42,135 nucleotides of DNA from the NCBI GenBank assembly GCA_945865815.1, contig CAMBFR010000022.1, forward strand, positions 1-42,135, written 5' to 3'. A program made the translations under genes and the position numbers. Under the pieces are notes generated by a model. The model was not told the origin of the DNA and did no database searches. It was given only the letters and a program-made list of their open reading frames with translations. Source of the stretch: Candidatus Sulfopaludibacter sp. SbA3 (lineage in GTDB: Bacteria; Acidobacteriota; Terriglobia; 20CM-2-55-15). Of this stretch, positions 9,027 to 41,932 are shown one piece after another. Each line of letters opens with the position of its first letter. Positions within the stretch are counted from its first letter, which is position 1.

Positions 9027-9033
9027 CACGACA

Positions 9034-16718: not shown

Positions 16719-19700
16719 ATGAAACGCAGCATCAGTCTGCTTTTGGGTGTTTTGTGTGTGGTCTCGACTGTTGGCTGGGCACAGTCAACGGCGCAGATCA
16801 GCGGGGCGGTAACGGATCAGAGCGGCGCAATATTGCCGGGAGTGGAAGTAACAGTGACGCAGATCGACACCGGTCTGACGCGCGCCGCCGTGACCAATGA
16901 AACGGGCGGTTACGTTTTTCCAAACCTGCCGGTCGGTCCGTATCGGCTGGAAGCGGCCCTTCCGGGATTCCGGACCTATGCCCAAACCGGAATCGTGCTC
17001 GCAGTGGGCGGCAATCCGGTCATTAACGTCCTGCTCGAGGTTGGCCAGGTTTCGGAAACCGTCGAAGTTCAGGCAGACGCGGCTCTGGTTGAAACCCGCA
17101 GCACCGGCGTCGGCCAGTTGATCGACAACGTGCGTGTGCTCGAGCTGCCGCTCAATGCGCGCCAGGTCACCGAGTTGATCATTCTTTCGGGCGCCGCTGT
17201 CGGCGGAGGAGCCCAGGCTACGCCGAGAACCTGGCCGACAGACAGTATTTCGGTCGGTGGCGGACTGCAGAACGGCCTGACATACATACTGGATGGCGGA
17301 ACACACAACGATCCCTACAGCAATCTCAACCTCCCGCTGCCGTTTCCGGATGCGCTCCAGGAATTCAAGGTGGAAACCAGCGCCGTCCCGGCCCAGTACG
17401 GGCAACACTCGGCCGGCGCCATAAACGCCGTCACGAAGTCGGGAACCAACGAGTTCCATGGCAGCCTGTTCGAATTCGTGCGCAACAAGGTGTTCAACGC
17501 GGCCAATGGGTACACCCAGAAGAAGGACGGACTCAAGCGCAATCAGTTCGGCGGTGTCATAGGCGGACCGGTCGTCAGAAATAAGCTTTTCTTCTTTGCG
17601 GGACACCAGAGGACGCTGCAACGATCCGAACCGAATAACGTTGTCAGCTACGTTCCAACGGCGCAGATGCTCGCCGGAGACTGGACCACTGTCACCTCGC
17701 CGGCCTGCAACAACAACCGGCAGATCACCTTGAGGGCGCCGTTTGTTAACAATCGGATCAACCCTGCATTGTTCTCGAATGCGTCTCTGAATCTCACAAA
17801 ACTGCTTCCCTCCACCGCGAATCCATGCGGCCAGATCGTTTTCGGCCGCCGGGAGAACGCTAACGAGACCATGACTTTGGGAAGAATGGACTACCAATGG
17901 AGCGAGAAGCACTCCGTGTTCGGACGTTATGAGGGTGGAGCCATGGAAACCCCGAACGACTACGATGGAAAGAACCTGCTTTCGCTCAGTATTCCGGACT
18001 ACGTGAGAAATTTCCACTCGTTGGTTCTGAGCGACACCTATTCGCTGAACCCCAGCACCGTGAATTCTTTCCGGGGGACTTTGATTCGCAGCGTCAACGA
18101 CAAGAACCTGCTTCAGGACTTCACCAACTACACCGACTTGGGAGTAAAGGGTCTCTATTTCCCGGCAGGAATGAAGAAGTTTATGAGGCTGACCATAAAT
18201 GGCGGCTTCAGTATCAACATGAGTTCCCCGGGCCTGACGAACACAACCACCTTCCAGTTTGCCGACGATTTGAGTGTGATCCGCGGATCGCACCAGATCG
18301 GGTTGGGAGTCAATTACATCCACTCGAACATGAACTATATCTCGAGCACCTGGACTGCCGGCCGTATGCAGTTCAACGCTTCCAACACCGGGCTCGGCCT
18401 GGGTGATTTCATGCTTGGCCGGCCGAACAACTGGTCGCAGGATCAGATTGCGGCGCAATATCTCCGGCAAAACTACACCGGTCTTTATGTGCAGGACACC
18501 TGGAAGGCTAACTCCAGGCTGACATTGAATGCCGGCCTGCGCTGGGAACCGTTCTCTTTTCCGTTCGATGCCAGGGCCAAATCCGCCCGCTTCGAGAGGG
18601 AATGGTTTGATCAGGGTCTGCGAAGCACCGTGTTCAAGAACGCACCGGCCGGAATTCTGTTTCCGGGCGACCCCGGGGTTGCGGACATCGGCACCGCGCT
18701 CAATGAAACCCGCTGGATGCACTTTGCCCCCCGCCTGGGATTTGCATGGGATCCAAAGGGTGATGGCCTGACGGTGGTTCGCGCGGCGTACGGGATATTT
18801 TTCGACTATCCGCACTTGAACGGTTTTGGCGGACTTCGGAATTCGCCGCCGCGAGGCGGCATTATTTCCATAGCGAATCCGATCGGTGGCTTTGACGATC
18901 CGTGGCTGGGGTATCCGGGAGGAAATCCTCTCCCGATTCCAATCAGCGAAAACGTTGTTTTTCCGACAGCGGCTGTTTACACGGTTCTTCCGCAGGATCT
19001 CAAGACCTCGTATATCAATCAGTGGAACTTGAACATCCAGAAACAGCTCGGTTCGGATTGGCTCGTGGCGGGAAACTATATCGGAAGCCAGGTGGTTCAT
19101 CAGTTGGTTGGAATTGAGGCGAATCCGGCCGTCTACATCCCGGGCGCCAGTTGCGTGATCGCCGGGCGGACTTATACTCCGTGTTCCGCGACGGGCAACA
19201 CCAACCAGCGCCGCGTGTTGAATTTGTCTGATCCAACGAAGGGACAGTACTTCAGCAACATCGTCGAAGTGAGTGACGGCGGAACGCGCAGCTATAACGG
19301 GTTGGTGCTTTCAATCCAGAAGCGGCGCACGCGGGGCGTCACCGTGCAGGGGAATTACACGTTGTCGCACTGCATCGACCAGGGGTATTCCGACGTCATT
19401 CAGACCGCCGGTTCCTACATTGCCGGACGCCGTGGCGCGAACAAGGGTAATTGCGAGCTCGATCGCCGTCACAACTTGAACATGTCGACGGTGTATGAGA
19501 CGCCAACGTTTTCCAACACCGCTTTGCGGGTGATTGGAACCGGTTGGCGGATTTCGGGAATCGTGCGCCTGCTGTCGGGAGCCCAGTTGACGATGTCGTC
19601 GGGTCTCGACAATGCATTGTCCGGCACGACCGATCAGACGGTTAACCAGATACTGGCCTCGCCGTACGTTGCCACCAAGACCAAGAACAGCTGGTTGAAT

Positions 19701-19979
19701 CCGGCGGCATTCGCACAGCCGGCATTGGGGACGTACGGGAATATGGGCCGTGCCAATGTCAGCGGGCCCGGAAGCATCCGGATCGATATGGGCGTGGTTC
19801 GAACGTTCCGTGTGACGGAAGGCCAGTCCCTCGAGTTTCGCGCCGAGGCGTTCAATGCGCCGAACCATTTGAATCCGGGGAATCCGATTACGACGCTCAC
19901 CGATTCGAACTTCGGCCGCATCCAGACCGCAGGTACGACTGAGCGCATTATGCAGATGGCTTTGAAGTACGTGTTCTAA
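16719..19979 (+). CDS. TonB-dependent receptor 1 (Oar-like)
   Basis: The 1086-residue outer-membrane protein has a signal peptide (cleavage near GWAQS), an N-terminal carboxypeptidase-regulatory-like domain (about 25-105: ISGAVTDQSGAILPGVEV, YRLEAALPGF), a plug region (about 120-230) and a large beta barrel. It ends in ALKYVF, the aromatic C-terminal residue expected for barrel assembly. This family is expanded in acidobacteria; the substrates are unknown and may be peptides or oligosaccharides. RBS GGAGG lies just before ATG 16719. It converges on the aldolase-like lipoprotein gene and belongs to a group with propeller copy 1. Confidence 0.9.
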   Translation: MKRSISLLLGVLCVVSTVGWAQSTAQISGAVTDQSGAILPGVEVTVTQIDTGLTRAAVTNETGGYVFPNLPVGPYRLEAALPGFRTYAQTGIVLAVGGNPVINVLLEVGQVSETVEVQADAALVETRSTGVGQLIDNVRVLELPLNARQVTELIILSGAAVGGGAQATPRTWPTDSISVGGGLQNGLTYILDGGTHNDPYSNLNLPLPFPDALQEFKVETSAVPAQYGQHSAGAINAVTKSGTNEFHGSLFEFVRNKVFNAANGYTQKKDGLKRNQFGGVIGGPVVRNKLFFFAGHQRTLQRSEPNNVVSYVPTAQMLAGDWTTVTSPACNNNRQITLRAPFVNNRINPALFSNASLNLTKLLPSTANPCGQIVFGRRENANETMTLGRMDYQWSEKHSVFGRYEGGAMETPNDYDGKNLLSLSIPDYVRNFHSLVLSDTYSLNPSTVNSFRGTLIRSVNDKNLLQDFTNYTDLGVKGLYFPAGMKKFMRLTINGGFSINMSSPGLTNTTTFQFADDLSVIRGSHQIGLGVNYIHSNMNYISSTWTAGRMQFNASNTGLGLGDFMLGRPNNWSQDQIAAQYLRQNYTGLYVQDTWKANSRLTLNAGLRWEPFSFPFDARAKSARFEREWFDQGLRSTVFKNAPAGILFPGDPGVADIGTALNETRWMHFAPRLGFAWDPKGDGLTVVRAAYGIFFDYPHLNGFGGLRNSPPRGGIISIANPIGGFDDPWLGYPGGNPLPIPISENVVFPTAAVYTVLPQDLKTSYINQWNLNIQKQLGSDWLVAGNYIGSQVVHQLVGIEANPAVYIPGASCVIAGRTYTPCSATGNTNQRRVLNLSDPTKGQYFSNIVEVSDGGTRSYNGLVLSIQKRRTRGVTVQGNYTLSHCIDQGYSDVIQTAGSYIAGRRGANKGNCELDRRHNLNMSTVYETPTFSNTALRVIGTGWRISGIVRLLSGAQLTMSSGLDNALSGTTDQTVNQILASPYVATKTKNSWLNPAAFAQPALGTYGNMGRANVSGPGSIRIDMGVVRTFRVTEGQSLEFRAEAFNAPNHLNPGNPITTLTDSNFGRIQTAGTTERIMQMALKYVF

Positions 19980-19988
19980 GGACGAAAG

Positions 19989-20018
19989 AAAAGGGGACGC
20001 ACCGGTGCGTCCCCTTTT
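19989..20018. terminator. Bidirectional terminator
   Basis: A perfect 30-bp palindrome with an A-run on one side and a T-run on the other (AAAAGGGG...CCCCTTTT) lies between the stops of two converging genes, receptor 1 and the lipoprotein at 20032. Confidence 0.9.
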
Positions 20019-20031
20019 CTTTTCCCGGCTC

Positions 20032-21684
20032 TTATTGACGCGGGTTTAGAGCCAGTCCGTTGGGAGCCTTCGGTATTGAATTGATATCGCTCGAACCCAG
20101 TACGACATGCTTCCAGTAGTCCCACTCCGGGTAGATCGCAGGAGTTGCAGTCTTTCCTGTCCCATCAAAGGCATTGACCGTGCCGCCGAGAGAAATCGCG
20201 ATCTGCTGAATCCTGGCGTTCATCTTTAGCGCGTGGGCCCGGCTTACCAGGGCGCGCGCCGACGGAGCTCCAAGCGCTATGCCGTGGTCCAGCAGCAGCG
20301 ACCCGTCTTTCGTTCCCATTACCATCGCAAGCGCTTTGCCCAGCTGGGGAGTGCTGATACAGGCCACGCAGGAGACTGGAGAGGGCGCGCCACCGGTAAA
20401 CTTCGTGATGTCGTAGATCGGCAGGCCGTCACCAATGAAGAGAGCCCCGTTCAGCATCGGGCGCAGCGGCACGGAACTCTGGCCGAAGGTGCGAAGTTCC
20501 GGTGTATGGGCGTGAATCACAGCCATGATGTCCGGCCGAGCCCGGTAGATTTCGCTGTGAATGAAACGTTCGGAGTACTGTGGCACATCGCCGGCCGTGA
20601 TCGGCCTGGTGTCGAGATCCGTTTCGATGACGTCGGCCGCAGTGACCATGCCCGGCGCTACATCATGCGGGATGAAGAAATGATCCGGATTGGTCCGGCT
20701 CCGCGCGCTGACGTGCGCAAGGCCGTCGGGAGTGAGAACGCCAATTTCCGCGGAGGCAAGGAGCCTGTTCGCAATCACGAGATCCTCGATGACAGCTTGA
20801 TCGGAATTCGGGTCCACCGGCGCAACAATTGCAGGATTTGGATTGCCGGAGAGATCGCGCGCGCCCATGAAGTTGAAGAACGCGGCAAACCGGTCGATAC
20901 GCTCGACTCTGCCGCTGGGTCCCGTATTCTCCACGCCGCCTGCCTCAGGTATTGCTGTTTCCCGGGTGAACACCATGTGGTTCAGCCGTCCTCCCACACC
21001 AATCTCGAAGAGCCGTTGCTCGGCTGCCATTCGCAATCCGAGAGCCCCGCTCACCATATTGTTCGTGGAGGGGCTGGCGACCACGGCGCCATGTCCGAAC
21101 GTCAGGATCGAGTTTCCCATCCCAAGCGACTCGGCCAGCGCCTTGCCCAGGGCCGGAGTATTGATGAGGCCGTTCTGTCCGCCCGGCGTCGGGCGAAGAT
21201 CAAAAACCGGGACCTGGCCGTTGTTTCTGGGCAGAGGCACGGAGCTCACGGAAAAGGCAACGAGTTCGGGAAGACTCGTGTAAGCGATCGCCATCACGTC
21301 GGGCCGCGCTTTGTAGATCTCTCCGTGGATGAAACGCTCATCGAGCGGGTCCGGGCGATTGCCTGCCACCGGGGCGCTTTCGAGGTCGCTCTCATAGATG
21401 TTGCCGGCGGTTACCAGAGCGGGTGATACGGCGTTCGATATGAAGTAGCGATCGGGATTCGTCCGGCTGCGTGCGCTTACATGTCCAAAGGCGCCAAGAA
21501 CCGCCATTTCTTTTGAAGAGAGCATCCGGTTGATCAGAACCAATTCCTCGATCAGGGCCTGGTCCCGGTTTGCGGATTCGTCAACGGCGGCCGGTGTCTC
21601 CGCTTCGGTTGGAGGAACCTCGTAAGAACAACCCCAAAGCAGCAGACTGAGCGAAAACAGACAGAGAAAGGTCCGGACTTTCAT
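20032..21684 (-). CDS. Lipoprotein with two class II aldolase/adducin-like domains
   Basis: The 550-residue protein has a lipobox (LLWGC, Cys19), so it is probably anchored in the envelope. It contains two tandem class II aldolase-like domains (about 40-240 and 290-500). In domain 2 the zinc ligands of fuculose-aldolase-type enzymes are all present: E378, H391 and H393 in HAHTPE, and H467 in LLDHG. In domain 1 the HxH pair is replaced by AYTS (residues 134-137) although E122 and H198 remain, so this domain is probably inactive. The substrate is unknown. It lies directly downstream of propeller copy 1 on the same strand. Confidence 0.8.
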   Translation of the reverse strand: MKVRTFLCLFSLSLLLWGCSYEVPPTEAETPAAVDESANRDQALIEELVLINRMLSSKEMAVLGAFGHVSARSRTNPDRYFISNAVSPALVTAGNIYESDLESAPVAGNRPDPLDERFIHGEIYKARPDVMAIAYTSLPELVAFSVSSVPLPRNNGQVPVFDLRPTPGGQNGLINTPALGKALAESLGMGNSILTFGHGAVVASPSTNNMVSGALGLRMAAEQRLFEIGVGGRLNHMVFTRETAIPEAGGVENTGPSGRVERIDRFAAFFNFMGARDLSGNPNPAIVAPVDPNSDQAVIEDLVIANRLLASAEIGVLTPDGLAHVSARSRTNPDHFFIPHDVAPGMVTAADVIETDLDTRPITAGDVPQYSERFIHSEIYRARPDIMAVIHAHTPELRTFGQSSVPLRPMLNGALFIGDGLPIYDITKFTGGAPSPVSCVACISTPQLGKALAMVMGTKDGSLLLDHGIALGAPSARALVSRAHALKMNARIQQIAISLGGTVNAFDGTGKTATPAIYPEWDYWKHVVLGSSDINSIPKAPNGLALNPRQ

Positions 21685-21708
21685 GTTGGTAATCCCCGAT
21701 TAGGTTTA

Positions 21709-21752
21709 AAAAACGAAACTAGCCGCGAACGATGAGGTCGTTCGCGGCTAGT
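21709..21752 (-). terminator. Terminator after propeller copy 1
   Basis: A 15-bp perfect stem (21718-21732 with 21738-21752, loop TGAGG) follows the stop of the propeller gene at 21779 on the minus strand, with TTCGTTTTTTAA after it. It separates that gene from the lipoprotein gene at 21684. Confidence 0.85.
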
Positions 21753-21778: not shown

Positions 21779-22651
21779 CTAGTTATTGTTATTGTTCGTC
21801 GTCGATGCGGCGTCGTCGAACACTTCGGGCCAATAGTAGGTCTGAACGACGTTCCGCGCGCCACTGGGAACAATGATTTCCTTGTGGAAGGGATTCAATG
21901 CCACTCCGGAAGGCGCTACATTAGTCAGCTGTTGAACTGGAATTCTCCAGCGCGCAGGAACATCGCCGGTGTCGGTAACGCTCCAGGCGCAGATAGCCCC
22001 GCCTGCACATGCCGTAACGATCATGCCGCTGGGTGTGACGCCGATCTGGCCGCCGCCACCGCCGCCACCACCGACGCCAATGCCGCTCTTCGGTCCCTGG
22101 ATGGCTTTCAGCGGTTTGGCATTGCCGCTCGCGGTGCGGTTAAACACCAGCAGTGGGCCGCCACCAGCGCTCTTTACGACCATGAGGTCGCGCTTTGGAT
22201 CGATCGCGATTCCCGCATGACCGGCTCTTGTGCCTTTAATTAATGTGTCAGGTCCGCTGAGGACTCGCTTGGGAGCGACGTCACCGTTTGCCAACCGGTC
22301 AAACACGAGGATGGATTCGTACGGAGAGGTATTTGTTCCGACAGGGATCAATATCTCGCCGTTGTCGCCATCCACGAACGCCTTGTCGTTACCGTCATAA
22401 TCCGTTCCAAGAATCTGGGTCTTGGGTCCCCGGATATATCGGATCGGCGCAGCCTCTCCGCTAGATCCTGCACGGAATGTCAGGATGGCCTGGTTGAATG
22501 GGCTGCTCACGACGATTTCATCGTTCACTGCGTTGTACGAGAGGTTGTGCATCGTACGGCTGATGAGGGTCTTCTGTCCTTCAATAATTCTTACCGGGAG
22601 AGTGTCTTCTTTCGCCAACCTGGCGAAGGCCGCAATGATCGGCGTGTTCAC
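21779..22651 (-). CDS. Propeller protein copy 1, part after the in-frame UGA
   Basis: These 290 residues begin at GTG directly behind the UGA at 22652-22654 and are in the same frame as the preceding part. They continue the propeller repeats (units ending in APxRxIxGPKT). There is no signal peptide and no ribosome-binding site before the GTG. The first residues VNTPIIAAFARLAKED finish the blade that the upstream part begins. Cys residues in VTACAGGAICAW are shared with copies 3 and 4. The C-terminus is an Asn/Thr tail. The part is best read as the C-terminal section of one protein. Confidence 0.75.
   Translation of the reverse strand: MNTPIIAAFARLAKEDTLPVRIIEGQKTLISRTMHNLSYNAVNDEIVVSSPFNQAILTFRAGSSGEAAPIRYIRGPKTQILGTDYDGNDKAFVDGDNGEILIPVGTNTSPYESILVFDRLANGDVAPKRVLSGPDTLIKGTRAGHAGIAIDPKRDLMVVKSAGGGPLLVFNRTASGNAKPLKAIQGPKSGIGVGGGGGGGGQIGVTPSGMIVTACAGGAICAWSVTDTGDVPARWRIPVQQLTNVAPSGVALNPFHKEIIVPSGARNVVQTYYWPEVFDDAASTTNNNNN
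22609..22629 (-). promoter_or_regulatory. SECIS-like hairpin, copy 1
   Basis: In the mRNA, nucleotides 23-43 after the UGA form a stem with one mismatch and the loop AGGUU. The inner six pairs (UUCGCC with GGCGAA) are perfect. The loop starts 31 nt after the UGA and has G at its second position, which fits the bacterial SECIS pattern as I recall it. Confidence 0.65.
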
Positions 22652-24013
22652 TCAGTTGGGCACCAGGTACTCTTCCCGCTTACTGTCATAAGCAACGGCC
22701 TGTGGTTTTCCAAACTTCAATGACACGCGGCCGGCCGGCGCGCTGCGGATGGTGCGTATGGGCGCCACGTTTCCATTCGCCATGAGCGGGAAGGCGGAGG
22801 CCGAAGAGTTGCCCATGTTGGAAACCCAGACCTCTTTGTTCTTCGCATCGACGGAAACGCTTGCCGGATGATTCAGGCCGGTCTTGTCTCCCTTGATTGT
22901 TCTCGTTGGGGCCACATTGCCATTGTCGGTTGCCTTGAAAACGACGACCGAACTGTTGACGTCGTTGCCGACATACAGATCGCCGCTTTCGGGCTCGATG
23001 GAGAATCCGCCCATCCAGTTCAGTGTTGTGCGGTCACCCTGAATCTTGCGGATTGGAGCGACATCTCCGTTCGCGTCGAGCGGGTAAACCGTAATTGAAG
23101 GAGGATGCCAGGTGCCGGTTCCCGGGACCGTATACGTGCTGTCGTTGCCCCAGCTGCCGACGTACATCACCTTTCTTTTCACATCAACAGCGATCCCGTG
23201 GGCATCGAAGATTTGAGTTTTCGGTCCCTCGATGACGCGCAGGGGAGCGTCGTTGCCATTGGCGTCCTTGCGGTACACCACCACTTTCGGCGGGTACTGG
23301 ATTGTGACGAAAATTTCGCCCTTCTCTTCATCGAGCGCGGACTGGAAGTTCCGATGAGGAGTTCGCAGCCTGCGCTTCGGCGCCACATCGCCATTGGCTT
23401 CCGCATCAAACACAAATACGCTGTCTGCGGTGTCCATCGCGACCGAATAAATGTCGCCGTTCTTGTCGATCGAGAGGCCGTTGTTGTACTCGTTAAGAGT
23501 CTTCGGTCCCAAAATTACGCGCTTCGGCGTAGCTGCTGTGACGGTCGCCGGTGTGTTCTCCAGCCGGTTGAATACCTTAATGCTGAAGTGATTGGTGTCC
23601 TGCAGGACAACCTCGTCGCGCTCGGGATCGACCGCAATGGAACTGTAGATTGGATATGAGTCTTTGATCGTGCGGACCGGCATGCGGGTTATGTCGTTGG
23701 TTGCCCCGCCGTTCTGGGCCGCATGTACCGTCTGGTTCAACACGGCATACAAGCTGAACCCGGAACCGCTGGCCTGCTCCTGCAACGCGGCGATCGCGCT
23801 CGCGCCGTCACTCGGCGCTTCCAGGCAGGTATCTGCGTAAGAGGGTAGCTCTTCAACGGAAACCAATCGAGCAGATCCCATACTGCTTACCGGGTTCGCC
23901 GCCGGTGCAGCAGGCGATTCCGGCCGTTCAACGAAGGACAAGGAAAGGACTCCAAATGCGATCACCAGGACCGCAAGCCCCGCTCTCCTGCCTGTACTTC
24001 TTTCAAAACGCAT
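22652..24013 (-). CDS. Propeller protein copy 1, N-terminal part ending in an in-frame UGA
   Basis: The 453-residue part has a basic N-terminus, a hydrophobic export segment (AVLVIAFGVLSLSF), a conserved motif LPSYADTC with one Cys, and then repeated NHL-like units (VAVD...IxVFxxxxxGxxAPxRxIxGP). The frame ends with YLVPN and UGA, and continues without shift in the next 290 codons. If the UGA is read, the protein has 744 residues with selenocysteine at 454. RBS AGGAGG precedes the start. It is divergent from receptor 2. Confidence 0.8.
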   Translation of the reverse strand: MRFERSTGRRAGLAVLVIAFGVLSLSFVERPESPAAPAANPVSSMGSARLVSVEELPSYADTCLEAPSDGASAIAALQEQASGSGFSLYAVLNQTVHAAQNGGATNDITRMPVRTIKDSYPIYSSIAVDPERDEVVLQDTNHFSIKVFNRLENTPATVTAATPKRVILGPKTLNEYNNGLSIDKNGDIYSVAMDTADSVFVFDAEANGDVAPKRRLRTPHRNFQSALDEEKGEIFVTIQYPPKVVVYRKDANGNDAPLRVIEGPKTQIFDAHGIAVDVKRKVMYVGSWGNDSTYTVPGTGTWHPPSITVYPLDANGDVAPIRKIQGDRTTLNWMGGFSIEPESGDLYVGNDVNSSVVVFKATDNGNVAPTRTIKGDKTGLNHPASVSVDAKNKEVWVSNMGNSSASAFPLMANGNVAPIRTIRSAPAGRVSLKFGKPQAVAYDSKREEYLVPN

Positions 24014-24162: not shown

Positions 24163-24191
24163 TTGACGCGGCGGGCTTGCTTGGTTATGAT
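24163..24191 (+). promoter_or_regulatory. Promoter of TonB-dependent receptor 2
   Basis: TTGACG (24163-24168), a 17-base spacer and TATGAT (24186-24191) make one of the best sigma-70-type promoters in the window. The transcript would start near 24198, about 110 bases before the receptor start. Confidence 0.6.
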
Positions 24192-24230
24192 GCGCCCACT
24201 ATTTGAGACTCCAAATTCGTGTGAGCCTGT

Positions 24231-24276
24231 CCGCACGCGGGTTTACGTGCGGCAATCTCGACGCACAGAGAGATTG
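24231..24276 (+). promoter_or_regulatory. Structured 5' leader of receptor 2 mRNA
   Basis: Two adjacent perfect hairpins lie in the untranslated leader: CCGCACG/CGTGCGG (24231-24252) and CAATCTC/GAGATTG (24253-24276). They touch without a gap. They may stabilise the mRNA or serve in regulation; no known riboswitch is recognised. Confidence 0.45.
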
Positions 24277-24309
24277 TTTCCGATTCAGGGGATAAAGGGG
24301 AGGTCCATC

Positions 24310-28237: not shown

Positions 28238-28259
28238 ATCCTCCGTTTCCACTAAAATA

Positions 28260-31891: not shown

Positions 31892-32014
31892 CCGACCCAC
31901 CCACCTTCCAGTTCTGCCAAATACTTTGACAACCAACTTGCCGCTGTGGTCCCATCTGCCCAGCGTTTAGAACAAAAATTCGACAGAAATTTCCAAAGTC
32001 CCGAAGGAGGGCTT

Positions 32015-33313: not shown

Positions 33314-34159
33314 GTGAACACGCCAGTAATTATGGCTTACGCCAGGTTGGCGAAAGAAAATACGGTTCCCGTTAGAATTCTGGAAGGTCAAAAGACTCTG
33401 ATCAGCCGCACGATGCACTCGATGGAATACGACGCGGTTCGCGACGAGCTTGTCGTGAACAGTCCGCTCGTACAGTCGATCCTGACGTTTAAGGGAGGAT
33501 CCAACGGAGAAGTACCACCGGTTCGAGTCATTCAGGGCCCCAAGACTCAGATACAGGGCACCGATTACGATGGCAACGACAAGATGGCCATAGATCCCGT
33601 TAATGGAGAAATTTTCATCGGCTCCGCCACAAGCGCCGGTCCCGGTAAGGGTGTAGTTCTGGTATTCGACCGGATGGCGAACGGAGACGTGGCGCCCAAG
33701 CGCATTCTTGGAGGACCCAAAACACAATTTGATTTCCCCACGCCGAAGGGGCAGGGTTTCCCGCACATGACGGTTGATCCCGTCCGCAATCTCCTGATCG
33801 TCAGCACCCGCGGGGGGCTTCTGATTTTTGACCGCGCTGCCAGCGGCGATGTGAGTCCCAAGCGTGTGATCAAAGGGCCCAAGACTCTTCTCACTGCCGG
33901 CAATGGCGGCGGCCTTATTAAGGTTTATTCGCCCAACGGCATGATCGTCAGTAGTTGTACCGAAGGATCGATTTGCGCGTGGCACATCGACGATGTTGGC
34001 GATGTTGCTCCGCGCTTTAAGATTCCGGTTCAGAAGCTCACGGGAGTCAACTTCTCGGGGCCCACTCTGAATCCGCTACATAAAGAGGTCATCGTTACCA
34101 GCAGCAGCCGGAACGTCATTGCGACGTTCTACTGGCCCGAAATTTTCGAGACGCCCTGA
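33314..34159 (+). CDS. Propeller protein copy 3, part after the in-frame UGA
   Basis: These 281 residues start at GTG right after the UGA, in frame, with VNTPVIMAYARLAKEN. They contain the Cys pair in SSCTEGSICAW and the end motif HKEVIVTSSSRNV, then FYWPEIF, shared with the other copies. There is no independent export signal. Confidence 0.75.
   Translation: MNTPVIMAYARLAKENTVPVRILEGQKTLISRTMHSMEYDAVRDELVVNSPLVQSILTFKGGSNGEVPPVRVIQGPKTQIQGTDYDGNDKMAIDPVNGEIFIGSATSAGPGKGVVLVFDRMANGDVAPKRILGGPKTQFDFPTPKGQGFPHMTVDPVRNLLIVSTRGGLLIFDRAASGDVSPKRVIKGPKTLLTAGNGGGLIKVYSPNGMIVSSCTEGSICAWHIDDVGDVAPRFKIPVQKLTGVNFSGPTLNPLHKEVIVTSSSRNVIATFYWPEIFETP
33336..33356 (+). promoter_or_regulatory. SECIS-like hairpin, copy 3
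   Basis: The hairpin has the same position and AGGUU loop as in the other copies. The inner four pairs are perfect, followed by one A-A mismatch and three more pairs. Confidence 0.65.
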
Positions 34160-34391: not shown

Positions 34392-34637
34392 GTCCAGCAA
34401 GAAGAGAAACTCCTCGGCAGCAACGTCATTCATATGCTGTACCGGTATGAGGCGAACCCGGCGGTATTCGTTTCCGGCGTCGGCGATGCGAATCGGAGAT
34501 GCTTCCTGAACGGCGTAGCGGTTCCATATACGGTGAATCCGGGCGCCGCCTGCTCCACAACTGGAAATACGAATGCACGGCGCATGCTGAGCCTGGCGAA
34601 TCCGGACGTTGGGCGGTACATCAAGCGGACAGCGTAG
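34392..34637 (+). pseudogene. Remnant of a TonB-dependent receptor
   Basis: The frame reads through LGSNVIHMLYRYEANPAV and GAACSTTGNTNARRMLSLAN, which correspond to the barrel region of receptor 1 (GSQVVHQL, EANPAVYIPG, CSATGNTNQRR) and to the same region of receptor 3. It covers only about 80 codons, with no start, no plug, and no barrel end. This is a broken relic of a fourth receptor, between propeller copies 3 and 4, where a partner receptor would be expected. Confidence 0.7.
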
Positions 34638-34668: not shown

Positions 34669-35481
34669 CTAGCCGAATATTTCCGGCCAGTAGAACGTGA
34701 TGATGACGTTTCTACTGCCGCTGGGCAGGATGATCTCCTTGTGAACCGGATTGATGGCGAGTCCTGAAAAGCCCACTCCGGTGATTTGTTGAGCCGGGAT
34801 CTTGAAGCGCGGCCCAACAGCTCCAGTATCCTCGATGCTCCAGGCGCAAATCGATCCACCCTGGCAGCTTCCGATGATCATTCCGTTTGGCGCATTGATT
34901 TTTACCTGACCGCCTCCACCGGTTATCGTTCTAAGCGGCCTGGCATTTCCAGAAGCGGTTCGATCGAAAATCCGGATCTGCCCGCCCGTCGCCACAGCCA
35001 GGAGATTGCGGGTCGCGTCCACGGCAACGTTCGGAAATCCTTGTCCTTTGGCAGTGGGAAAAGTAAATCCGGTGTCGGGACCGCCGAGAATACGTTTGGG
35101 CGCCACGTCGCCGTTTGCCATCCGATCGAACACCAGAATCACGCCCTTGCCGGCTCCACCGGCTGTTGCGCTTGGAAGATAGATTTCGCCGTTGACCTGA
35201 TCGAGGGCGATCTTATCGTTGCCGTCGTAGTCGGTTCCCTGAATCTGCGTCTTCGGTCCTTGAATGACTCGAATCGGCGGTTCTTCGCCACCGGCGCCAC
35301 CGCGGAATGTCAGGATGGTCTGAGTCAGGGGGCTGCCAACGACGATTTCGTCGTAGAGGGCGTTGTATTCGAGGGCATGCATTGTCCGGCTGATTCGGGT
35401 TTTCTGTCCTTCGAGGAATCTCAGCGGAGCCGTATTCTCTCTCGCCAACCTGGCGAAGGCCGCAATGACCGGCGTGTTCAC
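34669..35481 (-). CDS. Propeller protein copy 4, part after the in-frame UGA
   Basis: These 270 residues start at GTG next to the UGA, in frame, with VNTPVIAAFARLAREN. They complete the propeller, with the Cys pair in GSCQGGSICAW and the end motif HKEIILPSGSRNV, then FYWPEIFG. There is no signal peptide or ribosome-binding site. Confidence 0.75.
   Translation of the reverse strand: MNTPVIAAFARLARENTAPLRFLEGQKTRISRTMHALEYNALYDEIVVGSPLTQTILTFRGGAGGEEPPIRVIQGPKTQIQGTDYDGNDKIALDQVNGEIYLPSATAGGAGKGVILVFDRMANGDVAPKRILGGPDTGFTFPTAKGQGFPNVAVDATRNLLAVATGGQIRIFDRTASGNARPLRTITGGGGQVKINAPNGMIIGSCQGGSICAWSIEDTGAVGPRFKIPAQQITGVGFSGLAINPVHKEIILPSGSRNVIITFYWPEIFG
35439..35459 (-). promoter_or_regulatory. 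SECIS-like hairpin, copy 4
   Basis: The hairpin is at the same distance from the UGA as in the other copies, with the loop AGGUU. One pair of the stem is a U-G wobble where copies 1-3 have A, so pairing is kept although the codon changed from AAA to AGA. Confidence 0.65.
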
Positions 35482-36843
35482 TCAGTTGGGCACGAGATAT
35501 TGTTCTCGCTTGCTGTCGTAGGCGACTGCCTGAGGCTTTCCGAATTTCACGGACTTTCTTCCCACAGGACCGCTGCGGATCGTGCGTATGGGCGCGACGT
35601 CTCCATTTGCCGCCAGCGAATAAGCTGTGGCCGTGGAGTTGCCCATATTGGAAACCCACACTTCCTTATTCTTGGGATCGACCGAGATGCCAGCGGGATG
35701 GCTCAAGCCGGTCTTGTCGCCCTTCAGGACTTTCGTCGGGGCGACATCACCGTTGTCGGCGCTCTTGAAGACCAGGACCGAATTGCCGACGTCGTTGGCA
35801 ACCCACAGGTTTCCAGTTTCCGGATCCAGCGAGAAATTTCCCATCCAGTTCAATTGAGTCTTTGGCCCCTGGATGGTGCGCAGTGGAGCTGCATCTCCGT
35901 TGGCATCGATTGCAAAGACAGTAATCGACGGCAGATTGTGTTTGCCGGTGCCGGCAACCTTGTAGTTACTCTCGTTTCCCCAGTTGCCGACGAACACCAC
36001 GTTTCTCTTCGAATCGACCGCAACGCCGTGAACGTCCGCCAGTCCCGTGCGTGGGCCTTCGATCACGCGGATCGGTTTTTCACCGCCGGAAGCGCCTTTA
36101 CGGAATACCAGCAACCGGGGAGGATACTGGTTCGTCGAGTAGAGTTCCTGCCTGTCTTCATCGATGGTGACCTGGAATCCTCGATGAGGAATATTCAGAG
36201 TCCGCATGGGCTCGGTATTACCTTCAGCGCCGGCCCGGAACGTGAAGATGGCGTCCGCCGTGTCCATGGCGACCGAATAAATCTCGCCGTTCTGCGGGTC
36301 AATGTAGAGGCCGTTGTTGTACTCGTTCCTGGTGTCCGCGCCGATAATCATGCGTTTTGGCGTGGCAGCCTCAACGTCGGCCGGGGTATTTTCCAGCCGA
36401 TTGAATATCTTGATGCTGAACAGGTTCGTATCCTGAAGAACAATCTCGTCGCGCAAAGGATCAACAGCGACCGAGCTGTAGATCGGATACGTATCCCGGA
36501 TCGTGCGGACCGGCCGTCGAGTCACCTCGACGGTCGCTGCACCGTTCTGCATTGCAGCCTGTACCGACGCATCGAATGCGGGGAAAATGCTGGGTCTGCC
36601 ATTGGCCGCCTTTTCCAGTTCCGCAATCATGCTGTTCTCGGCGCCCGGTTCTCCCGGAGCGCAGAGATCGTTAAATTCGGGTAGCTGTTCGATGGAAACC
36701 AGCTGAGCCCCGCCCATCGGTATGCCGGACGCCGAATCAGAGTTCGGGGCCAGTCGTTCCAGCGCAGACAACCCGAAGAGGGCCATCGCGGTTACCGCTG
36801 CTACCGCAAGGACGCTTTTTCGGGCCTTCTTTTGTATGCGCAT
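35482..36843 (-). CDS. Propeller protein copy 4, N-terminal part ending in an in-frame UGA
   Basis: The 453-residue part has an export segment (AVAAVTAMALFGLSAL), the motif LPEFNDLC, and the repeated units. It ends in YLVPN and UGA (35482-35484); the frame continues for 270 codons. With readthrough it has 724 residues and selenocysteine at 454. AGGAGG precedes the start, which lies only 12 bases behind the stop of receptor 3, so the two genes form one operon. Confidence 0.82.
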   Translation of the reverse strand: MRIQKKARKSVLAVAAVTAMALFGLSALERLAPNSDSASGIPMGGAQLVSIEQLPEFNDLCAPGEPGAENSMIAELEKAANGRPSIFPAFDASVQAAMQNGAATVEVTRRPVRTIRDTYPIYSSVAVDPLRDEIVLQDTNLFSIKIFNRLENTPADVEAATPKRMIIGADTRNEYNNGLYIDPQNGEIYSVAMDTADAIFTFRAGAEGNTEPMRTLNIPHRGFQVTIDEDRQELYSTNQYPPRLLVFRKGASGGEKPIRVIEGPRTGLADVHGVAVDSKRNVVFVGNWGNESNYKVAGTGKHNLPSITVFAIDANGDAAPLRTIQGPKTQLNWMGNFSLDPETGNLWVANDVGNSVLVFKSADNGDVAPTKVLKGDKTGLSHPAGISVDPKNKEVWVSNMGNSTATAYSLAANGDVAPIRTIRSGPVGRKSVKFGKPQAVAYDSKREQYLVPN

Positions 36844-36855: not shown

Positions 36856-39800
36856 CTAAAAAACGTACTTCAATGCAAACTGCATGATTCTGGGATCCAG
36901 TGATTGCCGGACCTGTCCGAACGTGTTGCCCGCCAGACTGAGTCCCAGCAATGATGCTCCAGTCGTCGCGAATGACGGCCGGAAGCTGTTCGTGAGGTTG
37001 TAAGCCTCAACACGCACTTCCACTCGCTGAGTCTCGCTAATTCGGAACGCTCTCGACAGGGCCGTGTCGAAGGACCACGTCGGAGGACCCTGAATGCTGC
37101 CACGGCCCAGGTTGCCCAGAGTACCCGTTGCGGGCTGAGCGAACGCGGCCGGATTCAGGAACTGCGTGCCGGGCCGTCCGGACTTGTCGAGGTAAGGGCT
37201 GGCGAGAACCTGATTCACGCGTTGATTGTCGATTCCGATCAGTGCCCTGTCGGAACCCGCGATGACCGTGAACGGCGAACCGGCCAACCGTTTGTAGATG
37301 CCCGAAAGGCGCCAGCCGGTCGCCAGCTTGCTGAGCAAGGGGTTGGTAAACTGCGGCGTTTCGGCAATCGCCGTCAGGTTGAAAACGTGCCGCCGGTCTG
37401 AGCTGCAATTGCCGCGATCAAATTTTCGATTGCCCGGATTGGTGTAGGTCTCCGCCTCATTCGGGCCTTCCGAGTTCAAGTCGGCATAGTCACCGATGCA
37501 ATGGGACCATGTGTAGTTCGTGCTGACCGTCACGCCGCGGGCAGCGCGGCGCTCGAGAGAAAGCAGCATGGCGTGATAATTCGCCGTTGCGCCCGCATCA
37601 AGCTGGCCTACGAGTCCCATCAACTGTCCGTCCTGCGGCCTTTCCAGTCCGAGCTTCCGGCGCTGATTCGTATTTGCAGTGGTTGAACACGTAGCGTACG
37701 TCACGCCGTTCAACGTGCATGGACCACCGGGGATGTACACAGCCGGGTTGGCAGCCTGCTGCGCCCAGATGTGCGCCGTCGAGCTTCCGATGTAGCTTGC
37801 CGACGCGAGAAAATCGGCCGCAACCTGTCTTTGAACGCTGAGATTCCACGAGGATGTGCTCGGCGTCGGGAGGTCGAAAGGAGTGCTTTGGAAAGTTCCG
37901 TAGTTGAAAAATCTGGCTGCCGAAGTGCTTACCAACGGGAATGGACTTCCGCCGGGAAACCTTCCCCACGGGTCATCCAGGTTCACGCCCTGCAGCGTGG
38001 TGATATTGCCCCACGGCGCGGACTGTACCGAGTCTTCGCGAAACTGTGCGGAAATGAAGCTGTACGAATAAGCGTAGGATGCCCGCACCGATGTGCGGCC
38101 GTCTCCGGTCACGTCCCAGGCCAGACCCAGGCGTGGAGCGAACTGGGCCCACCTGTCATTGATACCCTTCCGGCCCGGATATCCTTCGTCGCCTGGATAG
38201 TAGACACCGGCTGGTGCATTCGGGTACACCTTGCTCTTGGTACCCGCAAGGAATCGAGCGTAATCGAAGTTCAGATTGCCGCGATCCAGCATCCGCTGTG
38301 GAAGAAACGGCTCCCATCGAACGCCGTAGTTCAGCGTCAGAGTGGGCGTCGCTTTCCACGCATCCGTCCCATATAACGCGAACAGATATTGATCGAGAAA
38401 CACGTGGTTGGTGCCGCCCTGCGTCAGCGAGGTCACATTGCCCAACAGGAAATCGCCCATGCCGAGGCCGGTCGAAGATCCATCGAACCGCATGGTTCCG
38501 CCGTCGACAAAGTGCGAATTGCGCTCGTGTACGCCGTAGGTCAGGCTGCCGCCGAACGACATCTGATGGTTTCCACGGACAAGGCTGACGTCGTCGTTGA
38601 ACGAATAGCTGTGTTGCAGATACTTGTTGTCGTCGACCGTGCTTCCATTTCCGGTTGCAAACCCGCCTCCTCCTGTTACCTGGAACGAACCCATTCGCGT
38701 CTTGGCATAGGTGCAGTCGATCTTGATGCCCATATCGCAGTAAGAGAAATACTCGGACCCGATCCGGTGGTGGTTCGCCTGGTTGTACGCGAAGCGGAAC
38801 GATTGAACCGTGTTGGGACCGATCAGATAGGTATCGCCGAGAGTAAGCGACCAGGGCGTGCTGTGGTTGCCATCGGTGCCGACATTAAGGATGTTGTCGG
38901 GCGAGAACGTGTTGAACGGATTGGGCGACCGCAGGTCTGTCACCAGAAGGCGTCCGAAAACGGAGTGGCTGGCGCTCACCTGATAGTCGACCCTGCCCAG
39001 CATCTGATATTGATCGCTCTTGGACCGGTTGCCGAATGTGACCAGGCCGCACTGGTCATCCGGCTTCGGAAGCTTGGCCGAGATGTTACGCGCCGCGTTG
39101 CTGTAGAGCGCCGGATCGATCTGGTAGATCGTATTGCCGCTTGCGTCCGCGCCGCGATTCAGGAACGGGGCCCGCAGCGCGCGCTGCACTCCCGCGTTGC
39201 AGGCGCGTGATGCAAAGGCCGTCCAGTCGCCGGCAAGCATTGCCGCCGTTGGTACGTAGGACTGACGGTCGGCCGGATCCTGCCGAAGCGTCGTGCCTTG
39301 AAGGCCGGCGAAGAAAAACAGTTTGTTCTGAACGATCGGACCGCCTATCGTTCCACCGAACTGGTTGCGTTTCAGCGTGCTTTCAACCTTCTTTCCGGTT
39401 CGCGGGTTTACCGCGGCGAAATAGGACGTGGCATTGAACAGGTCGTTCCGCACGAATTCAAACAGATCGCCATGGAACTCGTTTGTACCGGATTTCGTCA
39501 CCGCGCCTACTGCGGCGCCTCCTCCTCCGTGCGCGGCCGACACACCGCTGGTTTCAACCTTGAACTCCTGCAGCGCGTCGGGGAAGGGCATGTTCATGTT
39601 GTAGCCGCTGACGAAATTGATGTGATTGGCGCCATCCAAGGTGTATTCCACCGAGAAGCCCAACCCGCCGCCGACCGATATGGCCACCGACTCGCTGCCG
39701 TTCGTAGCGCGGCCCGTAACTGTCTGGACGGCCCCGCCGGCCAGCGTAATCAGATCGGTCACCTGTCTTCCATTAAGCGGCAACTCCATGATTCTGGCGC

Positions 39801-40218
39801 TTTCGATAACCTGCGCCACGCTCGAATTCCGCGTTTCCACCATGGCGGCGTTCGCCTGGACTTCGACTGTCTCGGAAACCTGACCGACTTCGAGGACGGG
39901 GTTGATGACGGGGCTGGCGTTTACCTGCAGTACGATACCCGTCTGCTGATAAGTGCGGAACCCGGGCAGCGAGGCCTCCAGCCGATATGGGCCAATCGCA
40001 AGGTTCGCGAGAACATAGGAGCCGGTTTCATTCGTTACGGAGTTTCGGACGATTCCGGTGTCCGTCTGCGTTGCCGTGATTTCCACGCCGGGTAATACTG
40101 CTCCGGATTGATCCCGCACCGTGCCGCTGATCTGCGCCGTTGCCTGCGCCCAAACCGAACTGCAAGTCAGGCCAAAAATAAGAATGCTGGTTGCTACGCC
40201 AAATACGATCCGCTTCAC
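36856..40218 (-). CDS. TonB-dependent receptor 3 (Oar-like)
   Basis: The 1120-residue protein resembles receptor 1 in length and sequence: signal peptide (ending VWAQA), carboxypeptidase-regulatory-like domain (ISGTVRDQSGAVLPGVEI), plug, barrel, and C-terminal ALKYVF. The start is probably GTG 40218, with GGAGGAGG seven bases upstream; an in-frame ATG at 40251 overlaps that site and would add an unlikely leader. It has its own promoter candidate at 40286-40313. It is followed after 12 bases by propeller copy 4 and preceded by the aldolase-like lipoprotein gene. Confidence 0.9.
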   Translation of the reverse strand: MKRIVFGVATSILIFGLTCSSVWAQATAQISGTVRDQSGAVLPGVEITATQTDTGIVRNSVTNETGSYVLANLAIGPYRLEASLPGFRTYQQTGIVLQVNASPVINPVLEVGQVSETVEVQANAAMVETRNSSVAQVIESARIMELPLNGRQVTDLITLAGGAVQTVTGRATNGSESVAISVGGGLGFSVEYTLDGANHINFVSGYNMNMPFPDALQEFKVETSGVSAAHGGGGAAVGAVTKSGTNEFHGDLFEFVRNDLFNATSYFAAVNPRTGKKVESTLKRNQFGGTIGGPIVQNKLFFFAGLQGTTLRQDPADRQSYVPTAAMLAGDWTAFASRACNAGVQRALRAPFLNRGADASGNTIYQIDPALYSNAARNISAKLPKPDDQCGLVTFGNRSKSDQYQMLGRVDYQVSASHSVFGRLLVTDLRSPNPFNTFSPDNILNVGTDGNHSTPWSLTLGDTYLIGPNTVQSFRFAYNQANHHRIGSEYFSYCDMGIKIDCTYAKTRMGSFQVTGGGGFATGNGSTVDDNKYLQHSYSFNDDVSLVRGNHQMSFGGSLTYGVHERNSHFVDGGTMRFDGSSTGLGMGDFLLGNVTSLTQGGTNHVFLDQYLFALYGTDAWKATPTLTLNYGVRWEPFLPQRMLDRGNLNFDYARFLAGTKSKVYPNAPAGVYYPGDEGYPGRKGINDRWAQFAPRLGLAWDVTGDGRTSVRASYAYSYSFISAQFREDSVQSAPWGNITTLQGVNLDDPWGRFPGGSPFPLVSTSAARFFNYGTFQSTPFDLPTPSTSSWNLSVQRQVAADFLASASYIGSSTAHIWAQQAANPAVYIPGGPCTLNGVTYATCSTTANTNQRRKLGLERPQDGQLMGLVGQLDAGATANYHAMLLSLERRAARGVTVSTNYTWSHCIGDYADLNSEGPNEAETYTNPGNRKFDRGNCSSDRRHVFNLTAIAETPQFTNPLLSKLATGWRLSGIYKRLAGSPFTVIAGSDRALIGIDNQRVNQVLASPYLDKSGRPGTQFLNPAAFAQPATGTLGNLGRGSIQGPPTWSFDTALSRAFRISETQRVEVRVEAYNLTNSFRPSFATTGASLLGLSLAGNTFGQVRQSLDPRIMQFALKYVF

Positions 40219-40285
40219 CGGTTCCTCCTCCAAAAAGGGCCTGAAATACACGCCCAGTCAACGGTTTCCATCAAGACAGTGTGCA

Positions 40286-40313: not shown

Positions 40314-40336
40314 TCAATGCGCGGCTGCGCCCTTCG

Positions 40337-41932
40337 TCAGTTCACCGGAATAATCTGCCTCCAGTATTCCCATGAACGCTCGCCGCCGCGCCGTCCGCCG
40401 CCGGATCCGTCCGGCGCCAGCAGTCCGGGCCCCGCATTCGCATTCGGGTTTGGCGGCGGTGGCTGAAGGTAGTTAATGCGACCGCCCAACAGGATGGCCT
40501 GCTGTTGGATTTGAGCATTGATGCGGAGATCATGAACGTCGCTCACCAGGTCAAACAGGGAAGGCGCGGTGTGCGCAATCCCGTGACCCGCCAGCAGAAC
40601 TACCGGCTTATCGCCGAGCGTTTCCGCCAGCGCCTTTCCGAGTGCTGCATTGCTGACCAGCGTCTGGGTCGGGTCATACTTGCCGACCACCCAATTTGCG
40701 AGGCCCTGGCCGATGAAAATTGCTCCGTTATAGACAGGACGGAGCTGTACGGAGCTCTGGCTGAAGGCTACAAGCTCCGGCGTATGGGCGTGCACGACCG
40801 CCATGACGTCCGGCCGTGCCTTGTAGATCTCGCCGTGAATGTAGATTTCCTGAAACTGATCGTCCCGGGGGCCTGCAACCGGTTTGCTGTCGAGATCATT
40901 CTCAATGATATCGGCGGCCGTCACGCTGCCTCCTGAAACGGCGCGCGCGATGAAGTAGTGATTCGGGTCTTTCGGATTGCGAACACTGACGTGCCCGAGC
41001 GAGTCCATGATGCCCAGTTCGGGAGAAGCCAGCATGCGGCTGGCATGGACCAGGTCTTCAAGAATGGTGTCGGCGGATCGTGTTGCCGTTTTCTGGTTTG
41101 CCGGAGGCGCAGCGGGAATCTTGCCGCCGTTTTCCACAAGGACCTGCCGCTTCCAATGATCCCATGCGCGGTTTCCGCCGCTTCGGCCTGCGAACCCGCC
41201 GACCGGAGGGGAGGGCGGGGCAGTCGCCGCAGGCTGCGCAATCGTGCCTCGCGGATTCGGATTCACGGCGCCGCCCAGGGCGATCGATTGCTGGATCAGG
41301 CGGGCATTTTGGCGCAGGCCATTGGCGCTTCCGACAACGCCGGGCAGCGACGTGCCGACAAGTACCGCGCCGTGTCCCTGCGCCAGGATGGTGTTCCTGC
41401 TCCCGAGTTGTTCCACCAGCGCCCGAACGATCTCAACTCCGTTCAGAACTCCGCTTCGCGGAAAAATCGGCGGCGGATTATTTCCCAGCGGCACAGAACT
41501 GACCGAGAAGGCGACGATCTCCGGAGTATGGAGGTGCATGACAGCCATCACGTCCGGCCGCGCCTTGTATATCTCACCGTGGAGGACATTCTCGGGGTAT
41601 TGGTCGGCCCGCTCGCCGGAGACCGCCTTGCTGTCGAGGTCGTTTTCAATAATGTCGCTCAGAGTCACCAGCGCCGGAGCCACCCATCGAGCAATGTAAT
41701 AGTGGCTGGGATTCGCCTGGCTGCGGACGCTGATGTGTCCATAGCTGTCCAGGACTCCTACTTCCTTTGATGTCAGAATTCGGTTGGCGAGGACGAGATC
41801 TTCCACGAGCGCCTGTTCGGCAAACGTTGGCGCCGCTGCAGCCGCCGGATCTGCATCTGCGGGCGGAGCCGAACGAGCGCAGCCCGACAGGAACAAGACT
41901 CCAAGTGCGAAAAGGGATATTCGAGAACTCAT
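40337..41932 (-). CDS. Lipoprotein with two class II aldolase/adducin-like domains
   Basis: The 531-residue protein has a lipobox (LFLSGC, Cys18), then an Ala/Asp-rich linker, then two tandem class II aldolase-like domains. In both, the metal-site motifs are present: HGEIYKARPDVMA, followed by HLHTPE in domain 1 and HAHTPE in domain 2, and a later GHG. It differs in this from its paralogue at 20032, whose first domain lacks HxH. The start at 41932 is chosen for GGAGG four bases upstream and the signal peptide. The frame runs farther into the IS end, but that part is not the natural start. The substrate is unknown. Confidence 0.82.
   Translation of the reverse strand: MSSRISLFALGVLFLSGCARSAPPADADPAAAAAPTFAEQALVEDLVLANRILTSKEVGVLDSYGHISVRSQANPSHYYIARWVAPALVTLSDIIENDLDSKAVSGERADQYPENVLHGEIYKARPDVMAVMHLHTPEIVAFSVSSVPLGNNPPPIFPRSGVLNGVEIVRALVEQLGSRNTILAQGHGAVLVGTSLPGVVGSANGLRQNARLIQQSIALGGAVNPNPRGTIAQPAATAPPSPPVGGFAGRSGGNRAWDHWKRQVLVENGGKIPAAPPANQKTATRSADTILEDLVHASRMLASPELGIMDSLGHVSVRNPKDPNHYFIARAVSGGSVTAADIIENDLDSKPVAGPRDDQFQEIYIHGEIYKARPDVMAVVHAHTPELVAFSQSSVQLRPVYNGAIFIGQGLANWVVGKYDPTQTLVSNAALGKALAETLGDKPVVLLAGHGIAHTAPSLFDLVSDVHDLRINAQIQQQAILLGGRINYLQPPPPNPNANAGPGLLAPDGSGGGRRGGERSWEYWRQIIPVN

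Follow-up and report, generated by a model that had tools for sequence, protein, structure and literature searches.

In E. coli, the propeller protein YncE is paired with the TonB transporter YncD/PqqU. Further precedents for such a pairing are BtuB–BtuG and XusA–XusB of Bacteroides, in which a TonB-dependent receptor is joined by a propeller lid. An Oar-type receptor is also known to secrete a protein (PMC6434023), the protease PopC of Myxococcus xanthus. In the part covered here of an inventory of 119 prokaryotic selenoprotein families (PMC13188914), there is no propeller or NHL family, and no propeller selenoprotein was recognised among the listed titles and abstract openings of the literature on selenoproteins or propellers in Acidobacteria.

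Gene content of the window

The window is the whole 42,135-nucleotide stretch of Candidatus Sulfopaludibacter sp. SbA3 DNA analysed here. The original prediction was that three gene types, a TonB receptor, an aldolase-like lipoprotein and a UGA-containing propeller, occur together twice, and the genes do lie in this way. Cassette 1 comprises receptor 1 (16719–19979, + strand), lipoprotein 1 (20032–21684, − strand) and propeller 1 (21779–24013, − strand). In cassette 2, lipoprotein 2 (40337–41932), the Oar-type receptor 3 (36856–40251) and propeller 4 (34669–36843) run in a single direction on the − strand, with the predicted gap of 12 bp between receptor 3 and the propeller downstream of it. 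Gene order and orientation differ between the two cassettes. The predicted family names also hold: the receptors have CarboxypepD_reg (PF13620) and outer-membrane barrel domains, the lipoproteins have a twofold class II aldolase domain (Aldolase_II) and the propellers give weak matches to NHL/lactonase profiles. Receptor 1, of 1086 residues, is Oar-type, with CarboxypepD_reg and the OMP_b-brl_4 barrel (PF25183, 655 bits); a PDB sequence search with receptor 3 gave no match. The plug domain PF07715 was matched in receptor 2 only, at 22.6 bits, below the cut-off of 23.9.

Receptor 2 (24163–28197, + strand) is full-length, belongs to another subtype and lies divergent from propeller 1; its start may be further downstream, at an MKR signal. 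The numbering used in the original prediction implies this receptor, yet it is missing from the cassette described there. Propellers 2 (29681–31864) and 3 (31946–34159) follow on the + strand. The predicted receptor scrap is present beside propeller 3 at 34407–34619 (+ strand), though the match is a weak one (59 residues aligned, 51% of them identical; E = 1.7e-4) and no open frame was found there in the one frame read.

In-frame UGA in the propeller genes

Each of the four propeller genes in the window has one in-frame TGA, as originally claimed, at residue 454 in propellers 1 (22652–22654) and 4 (35482–35484), at residue 454 of the frame read through in propeller 2 (31040–31042) and at residue 456 of that in propeller 3 (33311–33313). 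A standard gene call, as in the list of open reading frames for the window, splits every UGA-containing propeller gene in two, so that the family is easily missed. Among 118 related genes in the fetched loci that could be read across the position, 114 have U and the other four (L119, L084, L152 and L167) have Cys. The motif is VPN-U-V, with PNUV in 111 of the U-containing genes, SNUV in two and one sequence cut at this point. There are 10 UGA-containing copies in the genome of the window and between 4 and 16 in each of six relatives; TGA still serves as the terminal stop for 24 genes of the family.

A hairpin ~30 nt 3′ of the UGA covaries: across 104 sequences, 99.4% of cells are paired and eight cells are double-changed, a level reached in 0 of 500 shuffles. 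Bacterial SECIS hairpins carry a G in the apical loop, and the loop here reads AGGNN, AGTTN or CGNNN. The example in propeller 4 (35441–35457, − strand) has the stem TTCGCC/GGCGAG and the loop AGGTT, and lies 24 nt past the UGA. Synonymous codons between the UGA and the stem are nearly frozen (A464 is GCC in 59 of 59 genes and P458 is CCG in 59 of 61; the median entropy of Ala codons is 1.59 bits). The stem is broken in all but one of the four Cys forms, and that one keeps five of the six stem pairs. Folding of single sequences, with the L126 stretch left out, is unremarkable (z of −0.8 to −1.7), and an Rfam search of the window gave no match to a SECIS family.

An alternative reading takes the UGA as a genuine stop, with re-initiation at the adjoining GTG giving two separate half proteins. 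In its favour, the codon 3′ of the UGA is GTG in 108 of 111 genes, more constantly than coding requires. However, two genes have GTA and one has GTT, the Cys forms are uninterrupted, the hairpin covaries, and a product starting at the GTG would be without an export signal as well as the opening residues of its blade. We regard re-initiation as very improbable.

The genome of the window encodes SelA (TIGR00474, 564.8 bits) and SelB, the latter scoring above cut-off in all 11 genomes. SelA was not found in two propeller genomes that are 77–81% complete, and ARAGORN, run on the 20 kb around selA only, did not find the tRNA-Sec (SelC). The presence of SelA discriminates little because it is found in 253 of the 396 genomes of the phylum, and we have rejected its co-occurrence as strong support. 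The comparative evidence from the UGA position, the Cys homologues and the hairpin indicates that the in-frame UGA is very probably decoded as selenocysteine (Sec) in an Acidobacteriota-specific family of exported propellers.

Fold and location of the propellers

AlphaFold models of propeller 4 (pLDDT 87 and 89) show two six-bladed NHL-type propellers. In VIA comparisons, domain 1 matches TRIM3 with Z = 30.0, while domain 2 matches Brat with Z = 25.5 and PAL with Z = 23.4; domain 2 was folded alone, since domain 1 took up the ranks of the whole-protein list. The Sec falls within blade 1 of the second propeller, a domain whose best Foldseek match is E. coli YncE (E = 1.2e-10), and has an invariant Arg486-Thr487-x-His489 nearby in the sequence. 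Cys61 is conserved in those members that have an N-terminal linker. These proteins probably form a new selenoprotein family, in which a pair of six-bladed NHL propellers carries Sec in its second member. Where the aligned sequences reach the N-terminus, they have a hydrophobic stretch there and no lipobox Cys, and helix 6–26 could be an uncleaved inner-membrane anchor.

Association of receptors and propellers

No other family adjoins the propellers nearly as often as the receptors do, at 38 loci against 12 for the runner-up family, and the two genes often stand in tandem on the same strand. An Oar-type receptor is within 1 kb of 31 of 105 propellers, the other 74 being without one at that range. 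Two other candidates for membership of the cassette, DUF6152 (near 13 of 79 propellers) and the 28315-type protein (near 15 of 79), were rejected on account of their 61 and 80 copies, respectively, in the genome of the window.

The adjacency might be due to chance, since any gene family could come to adjoin receptors as numerous as these (73 genes in 4.34 Mb), and most propellers indeed have no adjacent receptor. Against this, four of the 10 propellers in the genome of the window have a receptor within 1 kb, compared with six of the 61 DUF6152 control genes and ~3% of random intervals. The divergence of receptors is also correlated with that of their propellers (r = 0.68 for 15 pairs, not equalled in 2000 permutations), shared descent explaining part of this. 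Adjacency by chance is thus quite improbable, and the adjacency of receptor and propeller statistically exceeds it. The partnership of these two proposed in the original prediction is supported by the neighbour counts, the tandem genes and the correlated divergence.

The receptor could alternatively export its neighbour, the propeller being secreted cargo, as PopC is through the Oar of M. xanthus. Such a role would suit the tight tandem of the two genes, but helix 6–26 as an uncleaved anchor would argue against it, as do the 73 receptor genes for only 10 propellers, and Oar is, to our knowledge, the only case of secretion by a receptor of this type. We consider export unlikely, although the receptors share the subclass of Oar by domain (PF13620 and barrel) and secretion is shown for Oar (PMC6434023); transport may run in either direction.

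The aldolase-like lipoprotein

In class II aldolases a His-x-His motif binds the metal. Both domains of lipoprotein 2 (lipobox LSGC) have this motif; in lipoprotein 1 (lipobox LWGC) it is lost from domain 1, which reads IAYTSLPEL, and retained in domain 2. The lipoproteins score 137 bits on NF053537, under the NCBIfam cut-off of 200, and match 2z7b with E = 2e-28. A single-domain aldolase near the L180 propellers was considered as the same lipoprotein and rejected, being a gene of soluble type that follows one for a Rieske oxygenase (names read from the sequence).

The original prediction went on to propose a pathway of three parts, in which uptake by the receptor is followed by periplasmic processing by both the propeller and the lipoprotein. 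For this it can be said that one congener keeps the lipoprotein–receptor–propeller run of cassette 2 (L130), with a lipoprotein 90% identical, and also the neighbourhood of cassette 1 (L088). However, the trio is found only in the window and that congener, where the lipoprotein of cassette 1 is shortened and frame-disrupted. The lipoprotein scatters independently of the other two: in the genome of the window two of its six copies are near a propeller and the other four have neither propeller nor receptor within 5 kb; in four of the seven propeller genomes (G001–G004) the form with two domains is missing. Cassette 1 is furthermore split by two strong terminator-like hairpins. One, of 15 pairs and ending in a T tail, separates propeller 1 from lipoprotein 1 (21718–21752, − strand); the other, a perfect hairpin at ~19986–20020, lies between the convergent lipoprotein 1 and receptor 1 (a sub-threshold match in the Rfam search). 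The genes of this cassette therefore probably have separate transcripts, and cassette 2 alone has the look of an operon. The three gene types are not a conserved three-gene unit, and we judge the three-part pathway improbable. The lipoprotein looks like a local passenger, a neighbour at the level of the genus whose link rests on one genus. A cassette that repeats to the eye can thus be mostly history, with one partner real and one incidental.

A model for the propeller family

Receptor and propeller are most likely a capture-and-processing pair. They would pair up at the outer membrane and periplasm, where propeller faces specific to each paralogue would recognise the ligand handled by the partner receptor, and the constant Sec, near Arg486-Thr487-x-His489, would carry out a common chemistry, either converting the ligand in a redox reaction or binding a soft metal that the ligand carries. 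The lipoprotein would have been gained beside two such pairs, with co-transcription, if any, only in cassette 2. To this overall explanation, that is, a Sec propeller family, a receptor–propeller pair, Sec chemistry and the aldolase as a separate neighbour, we give a probability of about 0.5. More tentatively, and with the odds against it, these may be the first selenoenzymes of propeller fold: multi-copy exported proteins, each matched to a dedicated Oar-type transporter. In them Sec454, together with Arg486/His489 (and Cys61 as resolving or metal-sharing partner in members with the linker), would carry out a single unchanging redox or soft-metal reaction on ligands of many kinds. Such a set of propellers would in effect be the selenium-based equivalent of the SusC/D arrays that serve for glycans.

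If the UGA is Sec, seven genomes each have an unusually large selenoprotein set from a single family, with 4 to 16 UGA genes. The fold is one on which Sec is not known, and the protein is exported and linked with transport at the outer membrane. The family is also a direct route to what soil Acidobacteriota do with their many Oar-type receptors.

Comparison with known systems

Like BtuB–BtuG and XusA–XusB, the proteins described here combine a propeller with a TonB-dependent receptor, although here in a minority of cases (31 of 105 within 1 kb). BtuG and XusB are seven-bladed surface lipoproteins, whereas our propellers have two six-bladed domains, Sec, no lipobox and a receptor of another family. 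YncE, the top Foldseek match, is likewise a propeller linked to a TonB transporter but has seven blades, no Sec and ~11% identity, and our propellers score 21.6 bits on the NCBIfam YncE model (cut-off 400). The six-bladed NHL fold is common to Brat, TRIM2/3 and the PAL lyase, which are 13–20% identical to the propellers in alignments, lack Sec and function in animals. The receptors of the window have the CarboxypepD_reg and barrel architecture of M. xanthus Oar, the plug being seen weakly, in receptor 2. Aldolase_II is common to the lipoproteins and to class II aldolases such as the 3,4-dihydroxyphthalate decarboxylase PhtC and Mlr6791 (2z7b), but the lipoproteins carry two domains in tandem and score under the NF053537 cut-off. 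With the selenoprotein families of the inventory (PMC13188914) the propellers share the in-frame UGA, the Cys homologues, the downstream hairpin and SelA/SelB. Most characterised families there are thioredoxin-like with CxxU/UxxC-type motifs, which the propellers do not have, and what further distinguishes the propeller genomes from those families is their 4 to 16 UGA paralogues per genome.

Gene clusters and their genomic setting

Both clusters of a receptor, a lipoprotein and a propeller that had been proposed from the sequence are present. Cassette 1 comprises receptor 1 (16719–19979, + strand), lipoprotein 1 (20032–21684, − strand) and propeller 1 (21779–24013, − strand); cassette 2, wholly on the − strand, comprises lipoprotein 2 (40337–41932), receptor 3 (36856–40251) and propeller 4 (34669–36843), with a real gap of 12 bp between the last two. 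The family assignments of the original prediction also held: the window receptors combine CarboxypepD_reg with OMP_b-brl_4 barrels, and each lipoprotein contains the class II aldolase domain twice. The propellers, including copies 2 and 3 (29681–31864 and 31946–34159, both + strand), have weak matches to NHL and lactonase models. The window also holds a third full-length receptor (24163–28197), which belongs to a different subtype and is divergent from propeller 1.

The window is one entire contig (C22, 42,135 bp) of a 4.34-Mb draft genome (193 contigs, 98% complete). Its ends carry a perfect 146-nt inverted repeat (2–147 and 41990–42135), the reading frame of which recurs in many other contigs of the genome, mostly near their ends, indicating a multi-copy element at which the assembly broke. 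The repeat also produces, as an artefact, the start of a long ORF at 42115. Integrated-element genes (DUF3987 protein, tyrosine integrase) occupy 1–9152 and terminate at a tRNA-Met gene. A SorA-like sulfite dehydrogenase and a cytochrome c are encoded at 14328–16626, and 5 of 79 propellers have related molybdopterin enzymes no further than 5 kb away. The genes at 28315–29097 and 29109–29747 belong to two huge paralogous families of this genome; the 28315-type protein, without a Pfam match, has 80 matches there, and DUF6152 has 61, several forming adjacent pairs with it.

The in-frame UGA codon

All four window propellers contain a single in-frame TGA, which falls within a VPN-U-V motif. Seven of the 11 genomes of the order carry the family, with UGA-bearing matches (counted by hand) of 10 in this genome, 10 in its congener G007 and 4, 14, 16, 14 and 15 in G001–G005. 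Six of 396 genomes sampled across the phylum match the propeller at 1e-80, and a scan of named genomes, taking the best 80 of 114 confirmed candidates, retained 79 loci, every one titled as Acidobacteria or groups inside that phylum. In deduplicated loci, the position reads PNUV in 111 segments and SNUV in 2 and is cut at U in 1, excluding 12 further flagged segments in which the motif was not reached or was broken; four genes have Cys there (TGC twice, TGT twice). TGA still serves as terminating codon in 24 family members.

SelA (TIGR00474, 564.8 bits) and SelB (386.9 bits) are both encoded in this genome, and within the order SelB exceeds the cut-off in all 11 genomes, SelA in 10 of them. 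Since SelA is widespread across the phylum (253 of the 396 genomes, including five of the six matching the propeller at 1e-80), this evidence is permissive only. The alternative that UGA is a real stop, with re-initiation at the GTG directly after it, is weakened by three genes that carry GTA or GTT instead and by the Cys genes, which read through continuously. We regard the propeller as a probable selenoprotein.

A hairpin begins 24 nt past the UGA, with a six-pair stem (TTCGCC/GGCGAA) and a five-base loop, mostly AGGNN. The stem is paired in 99.4% of cells over 104 distinct 51-nt sequences, against at most 66% for slid versions, and eight cells with double changes, confined to two pairs (UUUGCC/GGCAAA and UUCCCC/GGGGAA types), give a covariation reached by 0 of 500 shuffles. 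A second, weaker helix closer to the UGA also covaries. Folding of single sequences counts against the hairpin, with z of only −0.8 to −1.7. Between UGA and stem, synonymous codons are near-invariant (V455 GTG 62/63, P458 CCG 59/61, A461 GCG 56/60, A464 GCC 59/59), compared with a median codon entropy of 1.59 bits for well-conserved alanines. By hand count, three of the four Cys genes are short of two or three stem pairs, and the Cys gene at locus L167 keeps five of six.

Fold and conserved residues

For propeller 4, the AlphaFold model (65 sequences) reaches a mean pLDDT of 87.3, and its residues 117–412 superpose on the TRIM3 NHL domain (Z 30.0, 2.2 Å, 250 residues). Modelled alone (pLDDT 89.3), the second half resembles Brat NHL (Z 25.5, 2.4 Å over 243) and PAL lyase (Z 23.4, 2.9 Å over 252), the top Foldseek match being E. 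coli YncE (E 1.2e-10). Sec454 is predicted to come right after strand 448–453, in the second propeller's first blade. No variation occurs at Arg486 or His489 in alignments of 22, 65 and 60 sequences. Cys61, in an N-terminal linker that is low-confidence or disordered, is conserved by 52 of the 54 members having the region and is a possible partner of Sec. The N-terminus has a hydrophobic helix but no lipobox, suggesting that the protein is exported to the periplasm.

Association with the receptor and the lipoprotein

Unbiased clustering of 437 neighbouring ORFs gave receptors as the biggest family (51 genes, 38 loci), the runner-up reaching 12 loci. A receptor lies within 1 kb, on either side and in any orientation, of 31 of 105 propellers; on the same strand it is upstream of 12 of the 77 with enough sequence and downstream of 8 of 76, and the shortest gaps include 16, 28 and 37 bp between edges of profile matches. 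In this genome the figures are 4 of 10 propellers versus 6 of 61 DUF6152 genes, with ~3.4% expected from random intervals. Divergences of paired receptors and propellers correlate with r = 0.68 (15 pairs, 0 of 2000 permutations) and, over all 29 pairs, r = 0.51, shared ancestry contributing to both; one L162 and one L135 receptor were each counted twice.

Beyond the window, the triple recurs in the congener G007. Locus L130 there matches the lipoprotein–receptor–propeller order of cassette 2 exactly (its partial propeller was left out of the 79 for length), and L088 has the cassette 1 layout, but with the lipoprotein shortened and frame-disrupted. Within the order the two-domain aldolase is confined to this genome, G007 and G005, whereas propellers also occur in G001–G004. 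An aldolase lies within 5 kb of six of 79 propellers: two in the window, one at L088 and three at L180, where it is of the single-domain soluble type adjoining a Rieske oxygenase-like gene. Only two of the six such aldolase genes of this genome are near a propeller or receptor. At L180:7630–9672, the Rieske oxygenase-like gene and the gene for the single-domain class II aldolase stand directly upstream of two tandem propellers, a hint of aromatic substrates at at least one locus.

In cassette 1, a terminator-like hairpin of 15 pairs separates propeller 1 from lipoprotein 1. Two perfect palindromic hairpins, each flanked on either side by T runs, are probably bidirectional terminators: one at about 19986–20020 (a sub-threshold match, separating lipoprotein 1 from receptor 1, which converge) and one at 28259–28301 (also between convergent genes). 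A promoter-like site (10/12) falls between lipoprotein 2 and receptor 3, in a scan whose total was close to the shuffled expectation. From the aldolase distribution and the cassette 1 hairpins, the triple is a neighbourhood at genus level, and only cassette 2 could form a single transcript.

Comparison with known systems

Selenoproteins as such are known; we know of none that is a propeller linked to outer-membrane receptors. NCBIfam gave only matches far under cut-off for the propeller, and full-text literature searches showed no such protein among the titles and abstract openings listed. An inventory from 2026 that covers 119 families of prokaryotic selenoproteins lists no propeller in its available portion, and the word is absent from its text (PMC13188914).

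Receptor and propeller may form a capture-and-processing pair, in which Sec chemistry would stay constant across pairs and recognition would vary. The main rival is secretion through the receptor; the Myxococcus Oar receptor is described in part of one source as exporting a protease (PMC6434023). Pairs of a receptor and a propeller are known from other bacteria in the available parts of three papers: BtuG is a propeller lid on the B12 transporter BtuB (PMC10404256), XusB is one on a siderophore transporter (PMC13142918), and a figure legend names YncE with a TonB receptor in acidobacterial xoxF3 clusters (PMC10875860).
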